Made by a program: the position numbers and the translations under genes
IMG/VR virus record: IMGVR_UViG_3300005753_000163
Span: 1 to 42,470 of that record
Strand: one strand, 5' to 3'
Length of the DNA: 42,470 nucleotides
Origin: a virus
Notes under the pieces: model-generated
What the model saw: only the letters and a program-made list of their open reading frames with translations
Databases searched by the model: none
What the model was told of the DNA's origin: nothing
Shown: in pieces, positions 1 through 40,287 of the stretch
Numbering within the stretch: the first letter of the stretch is position 1
Layout: every line of letters begins with the position of its first letter

Positions 1-2
1 AA

Positions 3-49
3 TGGGGTGGCTAAGGGGACTCGAACCCCCGACGACTGGAATCACAATC
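3..49 (-). tRNA. 3' fragment of tRNA-His; prophage attachment-site repeat
   Basis: Read on the minus strand, these 47 bases hold the 3' side of the anticodon arm with a GTG anticodon loop, the variable loop, a T-arm (GGGGG-TTCGAGT-CCCCT), the acceptor 3' strand and an encoded CCA end. They match the 3' part of bacterial tRNA-His closely. The 5' half (D-arm and 5' acceptor strand) is absent and the sequence turns AT-rich after base 49. A 3' tRNA fragment of this kind is what integration into a tRNA gene leaves at the distal end of an element. The orientation predicts the element extends rightward and that an intact tRNA-His gene marks its other end. Confidence 0.85.
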
Positions 50-157
50 TAGTAAATATACGGTACAATTCAATAAGTTACATTGATATTTCCTAATAAA
101 ATACAATTAATATTATCAAATAAATCAAATACTTAGCTGCATGGGTTAGGAAAGTAT

Positions 158-874
158 TTGCCATTTTTAGCCCGGTGTCAACATATGCAGAAACCCGATA
201 TAAACACCACGAACCACATCGAGACTATCCCCCTGGATTCCACGCTGTATCCTGAGAGCCTCAGGCAGATTAATAACCCACCGGCAACACTTTATGCGCG
301 CGGCAACCTGGACCTGCTGAAACACACCCCTGGCGTGTCTATCGTCGGTACACGCACCGCCACACCAAACGGCCTGATTATCACTGAACGAATTACCCGG
401 TATGTCGTTGACCTGGGAGCTATCGTGGTCAGCGGCCTGGCCCTGGGAATTGATGCCAGAGCACATGAAGCCTGCCTGGCCGCCGGCGGAAAAACCATCG
501 CCGTTCTCGCGCATGGTTTGCACATGGCACAGCCCCAGCAGAATGCTACCCTGGCACAACGCATTTTAGATAACGGCGGTTTGTGGGTCTCGGAGCACCC
601 ACCTGGGGCGCCCGTCAGCCGAAACCATTTTGCACCACGGAACAGAATACAGGTCGGATTATCGGCCTGCTCAATTGTCGTAGAGGCAACCGTAAATAGC
701 GGCACCACGACGCACGCGAGGTTCTGCGTACAAGAAAAACACCCTCTCTATGCCGTTATACCTGCCCCCGGCAATCCCCTGCGACTCAATTCAGCAGGGC
801 CACGAATGATGGTTGATGCAATGGGGGCAATACCTCTGTGCTCGCGTGAAGATTACGAGAAAATCAGTATTTAG
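158..874 (+). CDS. dprA: DprA/Smf-family DNA-processing protein (short form)
   Basis: The protein of about 238 residues is recognised as DprA by its Rossmann core: VGTRTATPNG near residue 65, VVSGLALGIDARAH near 90-103, WVSEHPPG near 145, APRNRIQVGLS near 160, and EATVNSGTTTHA near 175. DprA binds single-stranded DNA and loads RecA in transformation; DprA-like proteins also occur in mobile elements. The C-terminal winged helix of full-length DprA is missing, and the N-terminal SAM-like part is short. A TTG start at 158 has an AGGAAAG ribosome site just upstream; ATG 185 is the alternative. It lies next to the attachment repeat, the usual place for cargo genes. Its role here (cargo, defence or recombination) is inferred only. 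Confidence 0.85.
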   Translation: MPFLARCQHMQKPDINTTNHIETIPLDSTLYPESLRQINNPPATLYARGNLDLLKHTPGVSIVGTRTATPNGLIITERITRYVVDLGAIVVSGLALGIDARAHEACLAAGGKTIAVLAHGLHMAQPQQNATLAQRILDNGGLWVSEHPPGAPVSRNHFAPRNRIQVGLSACSIVVEATVNSGTTTHARFCVQEKHPLYAVIPAPGNPLRLNSAGPRMMVDAMGAIPLCSREDYEKISI

Positions 875-4314: not shown

Positions 4315-4509
4315 ATGGAAATAAATGTAGACAAAGACTTGGAACTTGTAGCCCAGCTTGGAGCGCGCTATCGGCCGACAAACTGGATTGGGATAATTAA
4401 TTCAATATTGTTGATCATCATTATTATCTGGGTTCACTCAATAGAAAAAATACAAGTCGAGCGAGCGACGGTTTTTAAAAAAGTTGAAGCGCAGATCATT
4501 AGAAAATAA
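4315..4509 (+). CDS. Small single-pass membrane protein (64 aa)
   Basis: One strongly hydrophobic segment (residues 25-42: IGIINSILLIIIIIWVHS) is flanked by charged ends. The ribosome site GGAGAGGAAG is strong and seven bases from the ATG. The 112-base upstream gap contains a possible weak promoter (TTGATT at 4199, TGATAT at 4223). It is the last plus-strand gene before the convergent late operon. A lysis-accessory role is possible but unsupported. Confidence 0.55.
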   Translation: MEINVDKDLELVAQLGARYRPTNWIGIINSILLIIIIIWVHSIEKIQVERATVFKKVEAQIIRK

Positions 4510-32247: not shown

Positions 32248-32538
32248 CTACTCCCCTTCCATCGCGTTCACGCCATCTTTTAAAAAGACCAGCATGGCGT
32301 TGTATTTCTTCTTTGGAATGCACACGGTATCGTTGGCCACCGCCTTCAATCCAAACGCCCCGAGGAACGCCTCAATGCTATCAAGCGGCACACCGGCGCC
32401 CTGGCTGGAAAAGTATTTGCCCACCGCGCTTCCGGTCAGCGGGCGCTTCAGTAGCGGCCCCATCCGTTTGGCTATCGCGTCATTATCGAGATCCTGCTCT
32501 GCCCTGATGTGCAGGATCGTGCTGCTCAATGAGCACAT
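32248..32538 (-). CDS. CII-like transcriptional activator (96 aa)
   Basis: The second gene of the rightward lytic unit, with a HTH-like LLKRPLTGSAVGKYFS and the length of lambda CII (97 aa). The call rests on position and size; there is no strong sequence match. The ATG at 32538 gives the CII-like length; an upstream frame to 32592 is less likely. Its start follows the decamer repeat array by 25 bases. Confidence 0.5.
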   Translation of the reverse strand: MCSLSSTILHIRAEQDLDNDAIAKRMGPLLKRPLTGSAVGKYFSSQGAGVPLDSIEAFLGAFGLKAVANDTVCIPKKKYNAMLVFLKDGVNAMEGE

Positions 32539-32843: not shown

Positions 32844-33074
32844 TCACGCGGATTTACTGAAAACATCGGGGCGAAGCTCGTATCGTGAAACACAAGATAT
32901 TTTTTCTACGGTTAAGACAAATTTGGGCGGAACACCCTTATATGGCCATTTTTGAATCCGCCAATACGCTTGATCTGACGTCATCCCAGGAAAATCCTTG
33001 ATGAGTTCATCAGCCAATTGCCTATAGCCACCAGCGTTACGGATCGCTCGTTTAGTCGCTTCTTTTATGCCCAT
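32844..33074 (-). CDS. Cro/YdaS-like repressor (76 aa)
   Basis: The 76-aa protein (AIRNAGGYRQLADELIKDFPGM, WRIQKWPYKGVPPKFVLTVEKI, ending RYELRPDVF; cited by short cores) is a typical YdaS/Cro-type helix-turn-helix that begins phage lytic transcripts. It is divergent from cI across a 117-base region containing three operators. It would switch off repressor synthesis during lytic growth. Confidence 0.75.
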   Translation of the reverse strand: MGIKEATKRAIRNAGGYRQLADELIKDFPGMTSDQAYWRIQKWPYKGVPPKFVLTVEKISCVSRYELRPDVFSKSA

Positions 33075-33080
33075 ATTGGG

Positions 33081-33109
33081 ATATTAGGCATTTAATTCCT
33101 ATTTTGCAA
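33081..33109 (-). promoter_or_regulatory. PR-like promoter
   Basis: On the minus strand TTGCAA (33109-33104) and TAATAT (33086-33081) are 17 bases apart. The spacer contains the operator ATTTAATTC at 33090-33098. This promoter would start cro and the whole lytic unit. Confidence 0.65.
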
Positions 33110-33142
33110 GAATTTAATTCCTTTGTGCTGCATTTAATTCAT
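33089..33142. promoter_or_regulatory. Three-part OR-like operator
   Basis: ATTTAATTC occurs at 33090, 33112 and 33132, with flanks CCT, CCT and AT. Centre spacings are 22 and 20 bases, two turns of DNA, so the sites face the same side. The arrangement parallels lambda OR with three repressor sites. Confidence 0.7.
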
Positions 33143-33151
33143 ATGCAATAT
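33123..33151 (+). promoter_or_regulatory. PRM-like promoter
   Basis: TTGTGC (33123-33128) and CAATAT (33146-33151) are 17 bases apart on the plus strand, a weak promoter overlapping the third operator. Activation by repressor bound beside it would fit a weak -35. Confidence 0.4.
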
Positions 33152-33191
33152 CACAAAATTGGGTTAACACTAGAATTCGGGGGTAAAAGTC

Positions 33192-33686
33192 GTGGACCTT
33201 GACACACTGGCCAAGAGGCTAAAATACGCGAGGGATTTGAAGGGATTAACCCAAGAAGAATTAGCGCAAATGGCAAAAACTACCCAGGATGTCATTACGA
33301 AAATAGAACAGGGAAAAACCAAACAACCTAGGAGCATTGAACAAATAGCTAAAGTTTTAAATAAATCCGCAGCTTGGCTTCTATTCGGGATGGAAGATTC
33401 ACATAAAGTAATTGATTTAGAAGAAGAGAGGAAATTAGAAAATAAGGTGCCTACCGAATCAAAAATTGAATCTTTAGCCAGAGAAAAAGCCATAGAGTTC
33501 GCTGATAAATATGAGCGCCATCTAAACGTGACGTTTGAGCCTGCCGAAAAAATGGCACTATTTGACATGATGACGGAACGATATAGGCGACTATTGTCTG
33601 AAGGCCAAGTGGTTCCGGTTGATAAAGGGATGGATGCTGAAGTGATTGAGTTTTCAAAAATCCAAAGGATTAGAGCAAAAAAATAA
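33192..33686 (+). CDS. CI-like repressor without S24 peptidase domain (164 aa)
   Basis: The N-terminal XRE domain (LAKRLKYARDLKGLTQEELAQMA, ending WLLFGMED; cited by core LTQEELAQMA) is a typical repressor HTH. The C-terminal half is helical and charged (FADKYERHLNVTF, FDMMTERYRRLLS) with no Ser-Lys dyad or A-G/C-G cleavage site as in lambda CI. Release from lysogeny thus probably uses an antirepressor or another protein rather than RecA-driven self-cleavage. It starts at GTG with a weak GGGGG site. Confidence 0.75.
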   Translation: MDLDTLAKRLKYARDLKGLTQEELAQMAKTTQDVITKIEQGKTKQPRSIEQIAKVLNKSAAWLLFGMEDSHKVIDLEEERKLENKVPTESKIESLAREKAIEFADKYERHLNVTFEPAEKMALFDMMTERYRRLLSEGQVVPVDKGMDAEVIEFSKIQRIRAKK

Positions 33687-33719
33687 GCACAGTGATTGAT
33701 GTTACCAGGAGGTGATCAC

Positions 33720-33929
33720 ATGGAAATATTTGACGAAGAAACACGGAAATTCCTGAAAGAATTGGAAGATAAATATCATCCACCTACGGATGACGCAGCA
33801 ATAACAAAACGAAATCGATTGCCATACTTTGAGATTACCACACTACGAAAATCTCTATTCGTGGCATTGGCGATGCTTCTTGGTATTGTGGTAGTGCTTC
33901 AGCAGTCCTATATAACCACGCTAACTTGA
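33720..33929 (+). CDS. Small membrane protein of the immunity region (69 aa)
   Basis: One C-terminal hydrophobic segment (LFVALAMLLGIVVVLQQS) follows a charged 40-residue N-terminus. The ribosome site GGAGGTGA is strong and six bases before the ATG. It is directly downstream of cI and therefore probably made in the lysogen. Confidence 0.6.
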   Translation: MEIFDEETRKFLKELEDKYHPPTDDAAITKRNRLPYFEITTLRKSLFVALAMLLGIVVVLQQSYITTLT

Positions 33930-34040
33930 TGCGGTGCATAAAGTTTTCCCTGTAGGATTTGATCTCTACTCTCCCTTGCAAGATCTTCCTAATGTCAAAC
34001 TACAGAAAACAAAAATTGCGCACTGGGAGGTTATTCCGCT

Positions 34041-34211
34041 ATGAGAATTGCAAGCATTATTAACGGTAAGCTGGTAATTAATACAGAGCCACAAGTAAAA
34101 CAGGTGCGCATTGATGTTGATGTCAGTGATGATGACTCTGCCGCGAAACTCCAAGAATTATTGGATAATATACAGGATGATGATAAATCGCCACCATCTG
34201 TTAGTAGTTAA
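34041..34211 (+). CDS. Small acidic hypothetical protein (56 aa)
   Basis: An ATG preceded by GGGAGG about ten bases upstream opens a 56-codon frame (MRIASIINGKLVIN...; C-terminus Asp/Ser-rich). It lies between cI and the membrane protein genes. No family is recognised. It is likely expressed in the lysogen. Confidence 0.55.
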   Translation: MRIASIINGKLVINTEPQVKQVRIDVDVSDDDSAAKLQELLDNIQDDDKSPPSVSS

Positions 34212-34220
34212 GGGCTAACC

Positions 34221-34514
34221 ATGAAACACTCGCTTATATCAATTGTTATATTATGTGCCTCATGTGCATTATTGGCATCTATAGTTGCGATGCCAATAGT
34301 TTTCATGGGTGAGCCACTAACAGGATTTACTTTTTCTTTAGTATTTATTGCAATGTGGTTTATGTTGTGGCCAATCATACATATAGGATATTCACCAAGA
34401 TCGCATGGGGGAGCAAAGTTTGCTTGGATTATGCTCACCATCTTCTTTTCATGGATAGCATATCTTATATTTCTGATCGCTACTCAAGAAAGACAACCTG
34501 CAGGAAGTACATAA
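34221..34514 (+). CDS. Three-segment membrane protein, superinfection-immunity-like (97 aa)
   Basis: Three hydrophobic segments are seen at about residues 5-25, 32-54 and 66-84 (ending KFAWIMLTIFFSWIAYLIFLIATQ; core WIMLTIFFSWIAYL). This has the topology and closing motif of small superinfection-exclusion membrane proteins. Its last base overlaps the next gene's ATG. A role in blocking superinfection is inferred. Confidence 0.55.
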   Translation: MKHSLISIVILCASCALLASIVAMPIVFMGEPLTGFTFSLVFIAMWFMLWPIIHIGYSPRSHGGAKFAWIMLTIFFSWIAYLIFLIATQERQPAGST

Positions 34515-34903
34515 TGAATCTACGTTATGTTTCGCTGATTTTTATAGGCTTTATGTCTATTTCTGCGCATGCTAATGGGCAAACGTTTAAAAACGAACCA
34601 GACGGCTTTCGAGGTATTAAGTGGGGAGATTCTATAGATAAGTTTAAAGATAATCTTACCTCTCAATTAAGACATAAAGATGGGTCTGTATCATATGAGA
34701 TATACAATGATAATATGAAAATAGGTACTGCAAAATTAAGGGCGGTAACCTATTTTTTCTTTGATAAAACATTTATAGGGTCCAGGATACTTATCACAAG
34801 AGATCAAAAAGACAAACTTACAGCAGCATTGAAAAACAAATTTGGCAAACCTTCGGCAGTTGACAATAGGGAAATATATGTTTGGGGAGGAAAAAAACAA
34901 TAA
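34514..34903 (+). CDS. Exported protein (129 aa, signal peptide)
   Basis: The N-terminus is a Sec signal (LRYVSLIFIGFMSISAHA, cleavage after AHA), then a mature domain with GFRGIKWGDSIDKFKD, a motif common in periplasmic proteins. Start 34514 overlaps the upstream stop in TAATG. A position between repressor and TA genes suggests a lysogen-expressed surface or periplasmic factor. Its molecular role is unknown. Confidence 0.6.
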   Translation: MNLRYVSLIFIGFMSISAHANGQTFKNEPDGFRGIKWGDSIDKFKDNLTSQLRHKDGSVSYEIYNDNMKIGTAKLRAVTYFFFDKTFIGSRILITRDQKDKLTAALKNKFGKPSAVDNREIYVWGGKKQ

Positions 34904-35013
34904 TTTTATTTTTGTGTGAAAATGATATTTGCTCACTGAATATATCAGATGTAAAAATGGTTGGTAAAATGAACGAACAGGACGATTTATAAAAAATAGA
35001 AATTACAATTATA

Positions 35014-35304
35014 TTACTGGGATATAGGTCTAACAGTCAATTGCAATCCAAATGCTTTCAGGATGGATTCAAGGCTGGATAAACGCGGATTCCCTTTATT
35101 TGACAGAGAGGTATAAAGGGATTCGCGGCTGAGTTTTGTTTCTCTGGATAGAGCCGTCATACCGCCAGTTACATCAGCAACATTTCTCAACGCTGTAAGT
35201 AGCGCAACAGGGTCGCCGTCTTCCATCGCCGCCTCGATGTAGGCCGAAATATCATCAGGTGTATTCAGATAGTCCGTTGTTTTGTATGGTGTTGATTTAA
35301 TCAT
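35014..35304 (-). CDS. higA: HigA-like antitoxin (96 aa)
   Basis: The sequence YLNTPDDISAYIEAAMEDGDP, GGMTALSRETKLSRESLYTSLSNKGNPRL (core LSRETKLSRESLYTSLS) is the HTH antitoxin of HigBA-type addiction modules. Start 35304 overlaps the toxin stop by 8 bases, typical of coupled TA pairs. It would bind its toxin and the operator palindrome. Confidence 0.85.
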   Translation of the reverse strand: MIKSTPYKTTDYLNTPDDISAYIEAAMEDGDPVALLTALRNVADVTGGMTALSRETKLSRESLYTSLSNKGNPRLSSLESILKAFGLQLTVRPISQ

Positions 35305-35608
35305 TGTAATCTCTCCAAAATTTCTTTGCCTTCTCGATGTCTGCTTGCTGCGTGGCTTTATTACCACCACACAGCAGTAATACAACTGTGTTGCCGTCCA
35401 TGCCGTAGTAAACGCGGTAACCCTTCCCTGTATCTATCCTTAGCTCGCTCACGCCGTCACCGATGGCTTTATGGTCACCAAAATTACCCAGCATGATCCT
35501 GTCTAAACGCACTATTATTTTTGCCTTTGCTCGTGCATCCCGCAGCTCTTCCATCCAATTTTCAAACGGTGTTATTCCGTTGCCTGTGGTGTATTTCCGT
35601 ATTTCCAT
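35297..35608 (-). CDS. higB: HigB-like RelE/ParE-family toxin (103 aa)
   Basis: The protein (NWMEELRDARAKAKIIVRLDRIMLGN, RIDTGKGYRVYYG, KKFWRDY; core RAKAKIIVRLDRIMLGN) is of the Gp49/HigB toxin family, ribosome-dependent mRNA interferases. Toxin-first gene order is typical for HigBA. It has its own promoter at 35615-35643. It may stabilise the prophage or act in phage exclusion. Confidence 0.85.
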   Translation of the reverse strand: MEIRKYTTGNGITPFENWMEELRDARAKAKIIVRLDRIMLGNFGDHKAIGDGVSELRIDTGKGYRVYYGMDGNTVVLLLCGGNKATQQADIEKAKKFWRDYND

Positions 35609-35614
35609 AAAATG

Positions 35615-35643
35615 AATGTAATATATATATTACGTACTGTCAA
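35615..35643 (-). promoter_or_regulatory. TA promoter with 16-bp palindrome
   Basis: On the minus strand TTGACA (35643-35638) and TACATT (35620-35615) are 17 bases apart. A perfect palindrome GTAATATATATATTAC (35618-35633) overlaps the -10 and spacer, a likely autoregulatory operator. Confidence 0.7.
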
Positions 35644-35721
35644 CTATATCTTACACCTCGACGTACGGAACTCTCTGGCTTAAGAGGAATATTTTCTTGA
35701 AATTACACGCATTGACGCCTT

Positions 35722-35764
35722 AGGAATTTTATTCCTTGACGTATAGGAATTTAATTCCTATACT
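35722..35764 (+). promoter_or_regulatory. OL/PL-like promoter with two full operators
   Basis: AGGAATTTTATTCCT (35722-35736) and TATAGGAATTTAATTCCTATA (35742-35762) are palindromes sharing the ATTTAATTC core with the cI-cro operators. TTGACG (35736-35741) and TATACT (35759-35764), 17 bases apart, form the promoter, with the second operator inside its spacer. Repressor binding here would silence the rightmost operon. Confidence 0.75.
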
Positions 35765-35793: not shown

Positions 35794-36042
35794 ATGCTAA
35801 CCATACTCGCAGCAGGGTTTTTATACATGGACATAGGGATATCGGCCCATATGGGGCGCACCGACATCTACTCAGTTCAGGAGGATGTACCGGTCACATG
35901 GCAGAGCCCGCTGGTCAGCTTCGAACTGGGCTACCAATACAAGGCCACTTCAATTTACCTGCGGCACACATCCTCGATGACTGACAGCCGCGATATTGGG
36001 CTGAATGAGGTGGGCATCAAATACAGGGCATTCCAATGGTAG
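35794..36042 (+). CDS. Small outer-membrane-like protein (82 aa)
   Basis: First gene of the PL-like unit. Alternating hydrophobic strands (FELGYQYKATSIYLRHTSS, GLNEVGIKYRAFQW; core LGYQYKATSIYLRHTS) and a C-terminal aromatic residue are features of outer-membrane beta strands, and the family is seen in other phages. The N-terminal hydrophobic stretch could be a signal. It may alter the cell surface during infection; function is not known. Confidence 0.5.
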   Translation: MLTILAAGFLYMDIGISAHMGRTDIYSVQEDVPVTWQSPLVSFELGYQYKATSIYLRHTSSMTDSRDIGLNEVGIKYRAFQW

Positions 36043-36305
36043 CAGAACAACGACTCATGATATTCAAATCATTATTGCTAACCACTCTACTGGTGACCGC
36101 TGTGGGCCTCGAAAACAAAATTTATATAGACACCGCGAAAATGACATTTCGAGACGTGGTGACGACGGTAGACGGTACCCGGTACTGCGTGTGTAAAAAC
36201 TGCCGGACGCCGATTAAATTGCCGCACGGGATGCCAGAGCCGCACCCGTTGGGATCGCTGTGCTCACGGCAATGCGAAATCGACAACGCGAAACATTACG
36301 GATAG
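36036..36305 (+). CDS. Cys-rich small protein with N-terminal hydrophobic segment (89 aa)
   Basis: An N-terminal signal or anchor segment (IFKSLLLTTLLVTAV) is followed by CVCKNC and, 25 residues later, CSRQC, a zinc-knuckle arrangement. Its ATG overlaps the upstream stop; 36057 is an alternative start. A metal-binding exported or anchored protein is plausible; function unknown. Confidence 0.5.
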   Translation: MVAEQRLMIFKSLLLTTLLVTAVGLENKIYIDTAKMTFRDVVTTVDGTRYCVCKNCRTPIKLPHGMPEPHPLGSLCSRQCEIDNAKHYG

Positions 36306-36314
36306 GAGAACGAC

Positions 36315-36593
36315 ATGGGACAGGATGAATTAATAGAGACGTTGTGCCGGGAGTGGAAAACGCAATGTGGACTTTCAGATAAACACCACGACGCGGGAAA
36401 TATTCGCTGTTCAAGCGTTTGTGAAATCAGTTTTGGTGCATGGATAGAGGGATATAAAGACGCAGTGCGCGCAATGGGATATTTCGAATTATCTAGTGAC
36501 CTATTTGACCTGCAGCAACTCTGGTCATACCGAGCAAATATAAATTTGGCTCGATCAATTAAAAAACACACACAACAGGGAGAAAAAACATGA
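36315..36593 (+). CDS. Hypothetical protein (92 aa)
   Basis: A soluble 92-residue protein with a good AGGAG site before the ATG. The sequence has four Cys but no paired knuckles, and no family that I know. Overlaps the next gene by 4 bases (ATGA). Confidence 0.55.
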   Translation: MGQDELIETLCREWKTQCGLSDKHHDAGNIRCSSVCEISFGAWIEGYKDAVRAMGYFELSSDLFDLQQLWSYRANINLARSIKKHTQQGEKT

Positions 36594-36856
36594 TTGATTG
36601 GAAGTCGATATCGAAAGCCGATCTGGATCTCGCTCTGGAGTGCGCCTTAAGAGCGCACGGATTGTTTCCTGAGACATCTATTAACGTCTACTGGATGGAC
36701 ATTTCAGCGGCTCACATCAACAGTCCGTTGAGATTGCGCGATCTGCTTGAATCCGATGAATTTAATTTCATCCATGACGTTCTTGGGATTAATAAACACA
36801 TCAACAGAAAAACCGGGAGAATGAACGACTGTTTCTTCCCGCGTTACTCGGCATAG
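36590..36856 (+). CDS. DUF6874-like phage protein (88 aa)
   Basis: The pattern [61 protein letters not shown] (core [12 protein letters not shown]) matches a small, widespread phage protein family. The gene is in an ATGA overlap with the preceding one. The function of the family is unknown. Confidence 0.6.
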
Positions 36857-36867
36857 GGAGAAAAAAC

Positions 36868-37059
36868 ATGAGCGGATTAATTTTTACACGCAGACCAGGT
36901 GAAAGTTTTCGAGTCGGCGACGACATCATTATCACTGTGCTGGATGTAAAAGGCAGACAAGTGCGTATCCATATTGATGCACCACGGGAATTGCCGGTAC
37001 ATCGGGAGGAGATTTACCAGCGGATTCAGGAGGAAAAGAAAAATGACACAGACAACTGA
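36868..37059 (+). CDS. csrA: CsrA-family RNA-binding regulator (63 aa)
   Basis: The protein has the conserved CsrA layout: [13 protein letters not shown] near residues 8-20, [30 protein letters not shown] (cited by [18 protein letters not shown]), including the RNA-binding Arg of VHREEI. CsrA controls mRNA translation and stability of host genes. A phage-borne copy may reset host regulation or serve phage mRNA. A GGAGAAAA site precedes the ATG. Confidence 0.9.
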
Positions 37060-37228
37060 TTTTACACGTGACACGGGTAAACGTGTACCACGCGTGCAGT
37101 ACTGGCACCACGTCTGCGACGGTGTCGGGATGATGACGATGATTAGTGGGTTCAAATGCGGTGCGTGTGGTAAAGACGAAAAAGGGAAGGTTCATGAAAC
37201 ATTGCCGAAGGGAGAACGATATGAATGA
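37043..37228 (+). CDS. Small zinc-ribbon protein (61 aa)
   Basis: Residues around [21 protein letters not shown] give a CxxxV...CGAC pattern of a one-knuckle zinc site. The ATG at 37043 has GGAGG eight bases upstream and overlaps csrA by 17 bases. Unknown function. Confidence 0.55.
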
Positions 37229-37994
37229 GATAGCCACCAAAAAAACATTTTCATTAACGCCAACCTCATTGGATGAGGCAATGAAATTTGCAGACATGAT
37301 CGCAAAGAGCGACATCTGCCCGAAAGATTTTAAGGGAAACGCTGGCAACGTTCTGGTCGCGGTTCAAATGGGCGGTGAAATCGGTTTACAGCCCATACAG
37401 GCAATTCAAAACATCGCGGTTATTAATGGCCGCCCGTCAATATGGGGTGATGCACTGCCAGCGCTGGCAAGAACGCACCCTCATTTTGAATACATGACGG
37501 AAACGTTTGATGACGGGATGATGGTAGCTACGTGCAGAATCAAGCGCAAAAGAGAGCCTGAGCAAATCAGAACATTCAGTCAGGCAGACGCAAAATTGGC
37601 TAATTTATGGGGGAAAGGAGGACCGTGGACAAACTATCCAAAACGCATGCTCGCCATGCGCGCACGTGGGTGGGCAATCCGTGATGTATTTCCAGACGCA
37701 CTAAAGGGCCTCCAGGTAGCAGAAGAGATCATAGACTATGCACCTGAAAAAGAAATGGGAGATGTCCAACGTGTCGATAAACAACAAGCAGATAAACCAG
37801 AGCAAACAGTGCTGCCTCTATATCAAGCAGATCAATTTGCTGCCAATTATCCAGCATGGAAATATTTCATAGACAGCAACAAAAAAACTCCAACCGAAAT
37901 CATCAACACCATCGAGACGAAATACACGCTCACTGATGCGCAGAAGAACAAAATTAACGGTAAACAGGAAGGCTCCAGCAATGCAAATTCATAA
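37221..37994 (+). CDS. RecT-like single-strand annealing protein (257 aa)
   Basis: The core (AVQMGGEIGLQPIQAIQNIAVINGRPSIWGDALPAL; key part GLQPIQAIQNIAVINGRPSIWGD) is the RecT/Bet family signature. RecT proteins anneal complementary DNA strands in phage recombination together with an exonuclease, here the next gene. The start overlaps the previous stop. C-terminal ~60 residues are variable. Confidence 0.85.
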   Translation: MNEIATKKTFSLTPTSLDEAMKFADMIAKSDICPKDFKGNAGNVLVAVQMGGEIGLQPIQAIQNIAVINGRPSIWGDALPALARTHPHFEYMTETFDDGMMVATCRIKRKREPEQIRTFSQADAKLANLWGKGGPWTNYPKRMLAMRARGWAIRDVFPDALKGLQVAEEIIDYAPEKEMGDVQRVDKQQADKPEQTVLPLYQADQFAANYPAWKYFIDSNKKTPTEIINTIETKYTLTDAQKNKINGKQEGSSNANS

Positions 37995-39687
37995 TGTAAT
38001 CCAAGGAACGCCAGAATGGCAAGAATTGCGCGCCAAACATCACACAGCGTCAGAAGCGCCGGTAATGATGACTGCATCAAAACACATGCGCCGTGACGAA
38101 TTGTTGGCAATGAAAAAACTGGGAATCGAGCGCGATGTGTCAGAGTACACGCAGAAATTCCTGTTTGATAAAGGACACGAAGCAGAAAACGCGATCCGTC
38201 CACATATCGAAAAACTGATCGGCGAGGAACTGTACCCAGCTACGGGAACAAATGAGATTGGCAACTTGCATCTATTGGCCTCGTTTGACGGTATCACCAT
38301 GCTTCAGACCATGACGTTTGAACACAAAATGTGGAATGAAGAGCTTGTGGAAATGGTGCGCAATAAAAATTTGTCTGAACAATACACATGGCAACTCGAT
38401 CAGCTGTTAGTTGTCAGTGGGGCAAAAGAAGCAATTTTTGTAGTGTCAGATGGAACGCCAGACAAAATGGTTTATCTGTGGTACAGGACGAACGACGAGA
38501 AAGTGGCGCGTCTACTTAATGGTTGGCGACAATTTAATACCGATCTGGAAATCTATGAGCACATCGTCGATGCGCCAAAGTCAGCAGGAAAGGCTATCAT
38601 GGCACTGCCTACGTTGAACGTTTCTATTATTGGAAAAGTTGAAAACTCCAACCTATCCGTATACGAAAAAAATGCTATTGAGTTTATCGATAACATTAAT
38701 ACCGATCTGCAAACAGACGATGATTTTGCAGATGCGGAAAAAACAGTGAAGTTTTGTGGAGAGGCAGAAAGCCAGCTTGAAATTGTGAAGAAACAAGCGC
38801 TTTCGCAAACAGCAGACATTGAAGCCCTTTTTGCCACTGTAGATAACCTAAAGGAACAAATGCGCGATAAGCGGCTCACGTTGGAAAGACTGATCAAGTC
38901 ACAAAAAGAATCACTAAAAAATGAGATTGTAACCACGGCGTCAGAAGAATTCCGCGTCTACATGGACCAGTTGAGATCTATCCTTGATGGCGAGTACATG
39001 CCGGATATTCCGGCCGATTTCAAGGCGGCGATAAAAGGCAAGCGCACAATTACGACGCTTCGCAGTGCAGCTAATGACGAACTGGCCAGGGCAAAACTTA
39101 AAGCAAACGAAGTGGCTGACATAATTCGCACGAATAGAAAGTCACTCGTAGAAATGGCCGCCGAATACATGTTTCTGTTTAACGATATCAACACTATTGT
39201 GGAAAAGGACAATCCAGACTTTGTATTGCTCGTTAATGATCGTATAGCCAAGCGCAAACTGGAAGAAGAAAAGCGCCTTAAAGCAGAGCGTGAACGCATA
39301 CGAGAAGAAGAAGCGCAACGTGCCGCAGAGGAAACACGGATAGCGGATAAGAAAAAACAGGCCGAACTAGAATGCCTGCAAAAAGAAGAAAAATCCAAGA
39401 CTGCACAAGCACTTCCAGTCCAGAACTCAGGTTCCAATGCGAAACCGAAACGGCGGTATCCTATTGACGCGCACATCGGACCATCACCCAGACACGACCC
39501 ACTCCAACCCATTCATATGGAAGCGCCAGACACAACAAATTCTCGTCCTGCTGACATTGACATCATCCAGGTATTGGCACTTCATTACATAGTGCATGAA
39601 TCAATGGTTATTAGCTGGCTATTGCAGATGGATCTTAATCAAACAACAACATTAACCATGGAAGAATTTGGACCCAGCACGATCTAG
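37981..39687 (+). CDS. YqaJ-type recombinase exonuclease fused to coiled-coil region (568 aa)
   Basis: The N-terminal ~190 residues (TPEWQELRAKHHTASEAP, SFDGITML, FEHKMWNE) match YqaJ/lambda-exonuclease proteins with D and E-x-K. The middle and C-terminal ~350 residues are helical/coiled (Lys/Glu-rich near 440-490) and longer than a typical exonuclease. The ATG at 37981 overlaps the RecT end. It partners RecT in double-strand break-mediated recombination. Confidence 0.8.
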   Translation: MQIHNVIQGTPEWQELRAKHHTASEAPVMMTASKHMRRDELLAMKKLGIERDVSEYTQKFLFDKGHEAENAIRPHIEKLIGEELYPATGTNEIGNLHLLASFDGITMLQTMTFEHKMWNEELVEMVRNKNLSEQYTWQLDQLLVVSGAKEAIFVVSDGTPDKMVYLWYRTNDEKVARLLNGWRQFNTDLEIYEHIVDAPKSAGKAIMALPTLNVSIIGKVENSNLSVYEKNAIEFIDNINTDLQTDDDFADAEKTVKFCGEAESQLEIVKKQALSQTADIEALFATVDNLKEQMRDKRLTLERLIKSQKESLKNEIVTTASEEFRVYMDQLRSILDGEYMPDIPADFKAAIKGKRTITTLRSAANDELARAKLKANEVADIIRTNRKSLVEMAAEYMFLFNDINTIVEKDNPDFVLLVNDRIAKRKLEEEKRLKAERERIREEEAQRAAEETRIADKKKQAELECLQKEEKSKTAQALPVQNSGSNAKPKRRYPIDAHIGPSPRHDPLQPIHMEAPDTTNSRPADIDIIQVLALHYIVHESMVISWLLQMDLNQTTTLTMEEFGPSTI

Positions 39688-39723
39688 CAAGAATTAAAAC
39701 GAAACAGACTAACGGAGAAAAAT

Positions 39724-40287
39724 ATGCCTGACCACATCATTATATTTGATACAGAAACAACCGGCCTCCCTGTGTGGAAAGAGCCATCAGACAGCGACAT
39801 ACAACCGCATTTAGTTCAGCTCGCTGCGTTACTAGTCAACACGGGAACCCGGGCAATCGCGCAGAGCATGGATGTCATTATCAAGCCTGATGGATGGACT
39901 ATTCCGCAGGAAACAACTGACATACACGGGACCACAAACGAGCACGCTATGGATGTTGGTATCTCTGAGAAAACTGCGTTGTTAATGTTTCTTGAATTAT
40001 GGGGTGGTCGAACTCGAGTTGCCCACAATACGACATTCGATAACCGAATGATTCGAATCGGGACAAAGCGGTATTTCAACGAACAAGTGATCAGCAATTG
40101 GAAAGAAGGTGAGTACGAATGCACGATGAGACTATCGAAAGCAATTATGAGTGGCAAGCAGCCAAAGCTAGAAGAAGCATATATGCATTTCATGGGTAAA
40201 GAAATTCAGGATGCACATACGGCGATGGGTGATGCAAAAGCTTGCATGGATATTTACTTTGCGATCCAAGAAACAATTCCACTCTAA
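39724..40287 (+). CDS. DnaQ-like 3'-5' exonuclease (187 aa)
   Basis: DEDDh motifs are visible: FDTETTGLP at 8-16, the middle HNTTFDNRM near 100, and HTAMGDAKAC near 162. The enzyme could remove 3' tails in replication or recombination. An ACGGAGAA site precedes the ATG. It follows the recombination genes in the same unit. Confidence 0.85.
   Translation: MPDHIIIFDTETTGLPVWKEPSDSDIQPHLVQLAALLVNTGTRAIAQSMDVIIKPDGWTIPQETTDIHGTTNEHAMDVGISEKTALLMFLELWGGRTRVAHNTTFDNRMIRIGTKRYFNEQVISNWKEGEYECTMRLSKAIMSGKQPKLEEAYMHFMGKEIQDAHTAMGDAKACMDIYFAIQETIPL

Follow-up and report, generated by a model that had tools for sequence, protein, structure and literature searches.

A predicted mirror-image lambda-type immunity switch, with a cro gene placed for leaderless translation, in an IMG/VR virus and its relatives

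The immunity region described here is very probably a mirror-image version of the lambda-type OR/OL switch, in which a repressor encoded at 33192-33686 acts on five 17-bp operators. The DNA analyzed, hereafter the window, is a stretch of 42,470 nucleotides (IMG/VR record IMGVR_UViG_3300005753_000163, positions 1 to 42,470). It shows the arrangement expected of lambda-type control: cI and cro are divergent with operators lying between them, and another promoter, carrying these operators too, drives the second early arm. A first-pass annotation had proposed lambda-like two-arm control, and this proposal is well supported, as the two arms share one promoter and operator geometry and the design recurs with different operators in 21 relatives. 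The switch is a further computationally well-supported lambda-type two-arm case, of a kind of control that is already known, and its operator and repressor are without a close match in the collections searched. Less expected is that cro is positioned for leaderless translation, a feature that is of specialist interest and may matter more than the switch.

The repressor gene (33192-33686, plus strand) has a GTG start and encodes 164 amino acids with an HTH_3 N-terminal domain (Pfam HTH_3, E=1.5e-13, and PHROG repressor families). Divergent from it lies cro (32844-33074, minus strand, ATG at 33074-33072), encoding a 76-residue protein of the YdaS family (Pfam YdaS, E=6e-9). The second gene of the PR operon (32251-32535, minus strand), whose start codon choice is uncertain, has weak PHROG matches to CII-like regulators and is 49% identical over 94 amino acids to the gene at the same position in the related locus L037; a DUF1376 gene (YdaU-type, Pfam) and replication genes follow. 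The PL operon (35794-40287, plus strand) contains small open reading frames, a CsrA homolog (36868-37059), RecT (37221-37994, 62% identical to the L037 RecT), a YqaJ-type exonuclease (37984-39687) and an RNase T-type exonuclease (39724-40287). Between the arms are four small plus-strand reading frames (33720-34903, with starts at 33720, 34041, 34221 and 34514), some of them membrane-like or secreted, which gave no useful family matches in Pfam or PHROG; they are at most candidates for the immunity genes first proposed to lie between the arms. They are followed on the minus strand by a type II toxin-antitoxin pair consisting of an HI1420-type antitoxin (35014-35304; Pfam dnstrm_HI1420, E=3e-19; phrog_4268, E=7e-27) and a Gp49/RelE-like toxin (35297-35608; Pfam Gp49, E=1e-7; phrog_3445 toxin, E=8e-36). 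The positions first assigned to cI, cro and the toxin-antitoxin pair were correct, and the pair does lie between the arms.

The 9-mer ATTTAATTC has exact copies at 33090, 33112, 33132 and 35749 and a copy with one mismatch at 35726. By count alone it is unremarkable, with 24 matches at one mismatch or fewer in the window against about 21 expected. Because the bare 9-mer is this common, the evidence lies in the complete sites and in the way they cluster. When 32.6-36.1 kb was searched for repeats without bias, a single family emerged, made up of exactly five 18-mers (33085, 33107, 33127, 35721 and 35744), which upholds the triple motif reported between cI and cro. When a symmetric matrix trained solely on the three cI-cro sites was used to score all 17-mers of the window, the site at 35744 ranked first (24.0 bits) and that at 35721 fifth (17.9 bits), while the top unrelated site reached 13.5 bits; Markov-shuffled windows contained on average 0.03 sites scoring at least as high as the weaker right-hand site at 35721. 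The spacings of 22, 20 and 23 bp agree with the two helical turns noted earlier. Of the two full palindromes described at 35722-35762, one stands, a perfect 23-bp palindrome at 35741-35763 (11/11 pairs), while that at 35718-35740 is imperfect with only 6/11 pairs, although its core, AGGAAT-TTT-ATTCCT, is symmetric. An exact search of IMG/VR with the 17-bp operator found matches in 18 contigs.

Both early promoters were assigned by consensus alone. PR (33081-33109, minus strand) has a -35 element TTGCAA (33109-33104), a 17-bp spacer and a -10 element TAATAT (33086-33081). PL (35736-35764, plus strand) has TTGACG (35736-35741), a 17-bp spacer and TATACT (35759-35764), in agreement with the near-consensus promoter previously placed at the 35.7-kb palindromes; the PR -35 element is weaker than that of PL. 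The two cassettes superimpose in register, each with its -35 and -10 elements 17 bp apart, an operator in the spacer and a second operator 22-23 bp upstream. Putative operator OR1 (33085-33101) lies inside the PR spacer and OR2 (33107-33123) overlaps the PR -35 element on its upstream side, while OL1 (35744-35760), the core of the perfect palindrome, fills the PL spacer and OL2 (35721-35737) lies directly upstream of the PL -35 element and overlaps it. Judged by position, such sites would be well suited to occlude both promoters. OR3 (33127-33143), on the cI side, is the weakest of the five; it is imperfect, mostly one half-site, and is placed where a weak PRM would sit, and no promoter for cI could be recognized there with confidence by consensus.

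The 35.7-kb sites could instead be an antitoxin operator of the adjoining toxin-antitoxin operon, with the likeness to OR a matter of AT-richness. Antitoxins often bind palindromes, the start codon of the toxin-antitoxin operon lies about 110 bp from OL2, and that operon has a promoter-like site of its own nearby (TTGACA-17-TACATT, minus strand, 35643-35615). That site, however, overlaps a separate palindrome, GTAATATATATATTAC, apart from the phage operators, and it is OR, not this palindrome, that the OL sites resemble. PL is directed away from the toxin-antitoxin pair, and the match between OR and OL is kept in relatives, among them L037, in which tblastn found no relative of the pair. We therefore consider this explanation extremely improbable.

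In the two-arm reading, both the repressor and Cro are predicted to bind the five sites. Repressor at OR1 and OR2 and at OL1 and OL2 would cover spacer and -35 element, blocking both early promoters and keeping the prophage silent. On failure of the repressor, PR would yield Cro, the CII-like protein and the replication proteins, PL would express the CsrA/RecT/exonuclease operon, and Cro would compete with the repressor for the same operators. The position of OR3 on the cI side would most likely let Cro, and high levels of repressor, switch off cI transcription. The operators might also be real but belong to a circuit run by Cro alone or by a host regulator, without CI repression of PL; the binding protein is a prediction and the repressor has no close relatives, none being found in IMG/VR, and named phages giving only distant HTH or 434-type matches. 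This we hold to be very unlikely, as cI, an HTH_3 gene divergent from cro, occupies the canonical position, and as both the CI-like and the Cro-like proteins of CP-933P act on both arms (PMC8630535). Genome matches to the repressor were mostly confined to the HTH, and L020 was set aside as unlike a phage switch. An AlphaFold model of the repressor from its single sequence was poor (mean pLDDT 54) and unusable.

Pfam and PHROG searches detected neither an S24 peptidase nor a recognizable oligomerization domain in the 164-residue repressor, and RecA-driven self-cleavage is thus not supported. In the window, matches to the LexA-box pattern CTGT-N8-ACAG were no more frequent than chance, so that there is no evidence for an SOS-controlled antirepressor. 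An S24 domain was found in the repressor of L039, and GDSM-type motifs were seen by eye in the repressors of several other relatives.

INPHARED contained no DNA-level relatives of the immunity region, and since DNA relatives and close repressor relatives were lacking, about 90 related viral loci were gathered through RecT and searched for inverted repeats upstream of recT that would reveal twin arms. The final set consists of 22 phages, the window and 21 RecT-related IMG/VR phages, all 21 of which have the twin PR/PL design with phage-specific operators. The arms lie, for example, at 4349-4394 and 5789-5834 in L037 and at 2855-2895 and 5590-5630 in L040, and L076, L092 and L118 are further examples with different operators. 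In 43 of the 44 arms, the internal repeat is best at a shift of 22-26 bp, corresponding to two operators per arm. Within one phage both arms match, while the operators differ between phages, so something keeps the arms alike; this supports the conclusion that one regulator serves both arms and is the strongest computational evidence for it. Inward-facing promoter pairs, scored as a control, reached 24 in one case, and pairs scoring below about 20 in the promoter-pair test rest on the inverted-repeat search or on inspection (L044, L088 and L105). L039, the locus with the S24 repressor, had no convincing twin arms, and an inverted pair in L055 was judged unrelated and left out of the count. L041, at a contig edge, seems to be a further case (TAGAAT, 8 nt, ATG) and was also left out. 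Such near-identical operator cassettes at both early promoters offer a simple way to read operators from uncultured phage genomes.

It had been suggested that distance and phasing would permit repressor looping, and a loop joining the arms as in lambda and needed for tight control would be an addition to the two-arm reading. The layout is lambda-like in having two or three operators per arm and arms 0.5-2.7 kb apart. However, these distances show no helical phase across the 22 phages (Rayleigh p 0.26-0.54), phase over the 2.6 kb of the window is uninformative, and its repressor has no recognized domain through which to oligomerize. A repressor loop between the arms is not supported, and we regard it as rather doubtful.

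The start codon of cro lies 5-10 nt past the end of the PR -10 element in all 22 phages (6-8 nt in 20 of them), is ATG in 21, and is preceded by a Shine-Dalgarno sequence in none. At a random position in these loci, such a start would be found 5-10 nt downstream in 3.5% of cases. In the window, 6 nt without a Shine-Dalgarno sequence separate the -10 element from the ATG, and transcription from PR would be expected to begin on that ATG or no more than 1-2 nt from it. With this spacing and no Shine-Dalgarno sequence in 22 phages, the cro mRNA should be leaderless, and the window and its 21 relatives seem to translate cro from an mRNA without a leader. The phages represent 15 Cro clusters at 50% identity and were selected by RecT and twin promoters, not by the distance from -10 to start, although this distance was noticed before the final set was fixed. 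At the PL arms of the same phages, the first genes mostly begin 20-146 nt past the -10 element, many with a GGAG-type Shine-Dalgarno sequence. Among named YdaS-type records, read as outgroups, the distance to cro is 26-35 nt in the enteric examples Rac, Klebsiella phage ST13-OXA48phi12.4, PHB10, SEN34, Fraca and CharmingMan and 6 nt in Paraburkholderia phage IPK, with no clear cro promoter found in a few others. Short and long distances thus appear to separate groups of phages.

We judge it probable, on the strength of these gene starts, that a broad set of temperate phages makes Cro from leaderless mRNA by design. If so, Cro translation would track how well the cell can initiate on leaderless mRNAs (70S ribosomes, initiation-factor balance and stress), and the lytic decision would be tied to the translation state of the cell. 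That cro is not leaderless, with transcription truly beginning farther upstream or translation beginning at a later codon, is a reading that promoters called from consensus allow, and we consider it unlikely. Each phage carries a second copy of this promoter at PL, and none of the 22 starts has a Shine-Dalgarno sequence. In the window, the cro frame is closed by a stop codon 12 nt ahead of the ATG, and the first methionine after the start comes at residue 31, within the HTH. In lambda, the leaderless mRNA is that of cI and not of cro. Within open-licence PubMed Central papers, the only measured leaderless cro mRNA found elsewhere was that of PY54, where the immB cro mRNA starts at the AUG by RACE (PMC4488713). 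PY54 resembles the window in this start, measured in the one and predicted in the other, but differs in having a single Cro operator, in that Cro self-repression is not shown, and in its different proteins.

The Cro proteins end in Ala-Ala in 14 of the 22 phages (L040, L076, L081, L082, L088, L092, L093, L094, L097, L099, L101, L104, L105 and L119), compared to 42 of the 385 other reading frames that these loci contain (Fisher p 2.5e-8, which is optimistic because related phages are not independent). The Ala codons vary, and the ending is possibly an ssrA-like degradation signal giving a short-lived Cro. The Cro of the window ends in SKSA.

The switch is closest to those of the Rac and CP-933P prophages and belongs to the Rac/CP-933P (YdaS) family of immunity regions, with a short HTH repressor facing a YdaS Cro, after which come CII/YdaT-type and DUF1376 genes, the CII-like gene being assigned by weak PHROG matches. 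In CP-933P of Escherichia coli O157:H7 (PaaR2/YdaS/YdaT), a short CI analogue and YdaS acting as Cro bind intergenic operators by EMSA and footprinting, and PL933P carries operators similar to those of PR933P and is repressed by both proteins (PMC8630535). This design, backed by footprints, RACE and reporters, is a proven example of two-arm control (PMC8630535). The window shares with it the short CI analogue, the YdaS-type Cro, the CII analogue, toxin-antitoxin genes in the immunity region and PL operators equal to those of PR. In CP-933P, however, the toxin-antitoxin genes are inside the repressor operon, whereas the pair in the window is separate and on the opposite strand, and the leaderless mRNA is that of the repressor by RACE (PMC8630535), while in the window it is cro that is predicted to be leaderless. 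Rac of E. coli K-12 has the same gene order around the switch (racR-ydaS-ydaT-ydaU / recE), an operator in the PR spacer (TTGACA-18-TAATAT) and operator arms that are inverted and separated by about 600 bp, but its ydaS starts 26 nt past the -10 element with a Shine-Dalgarno sequence, and its repressor and Cro cannot be aligned with those of the window beyond a few residues. Lambda has a three-operator OR, operators in the PR and PL spacers, divergent cI and cro and recombination genes driven by PL, and the window has all of these. It differs from lambda in its mirror orientation, its unrelated operators, a repressor without an S24 domain, and the detection of two OL sites where lambda has three, and no N gene was recognized in the window.

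Several minor features of the early operons and the window end were also seen. Several PL leaders (e.g., L040, L093, L094 and L101) contain, just past the predicted PL start, short inverted repeats rich in GC (GCCCC...GGGGC, CCAGC...GCTGG); these could be antitermination or stability elements. The PL leader of the window has two GGA motifs adjoining the first start codon. A CsrA homolog is also present in the PL operon of L037 (L037:7569-7775), where an early-operon reading frame (L037:6859-7542) is made of at least eight direct repeats of 66 nt (22 amino acids). The left end of the window (1-874), in which ARAGORN found no complete tRNA, resembles a partial tRNA gene, the 3' half (on the minus strand, apparently for His), and is perhaps an attachment site; a DprA-family gene comes after this partial tRNA.
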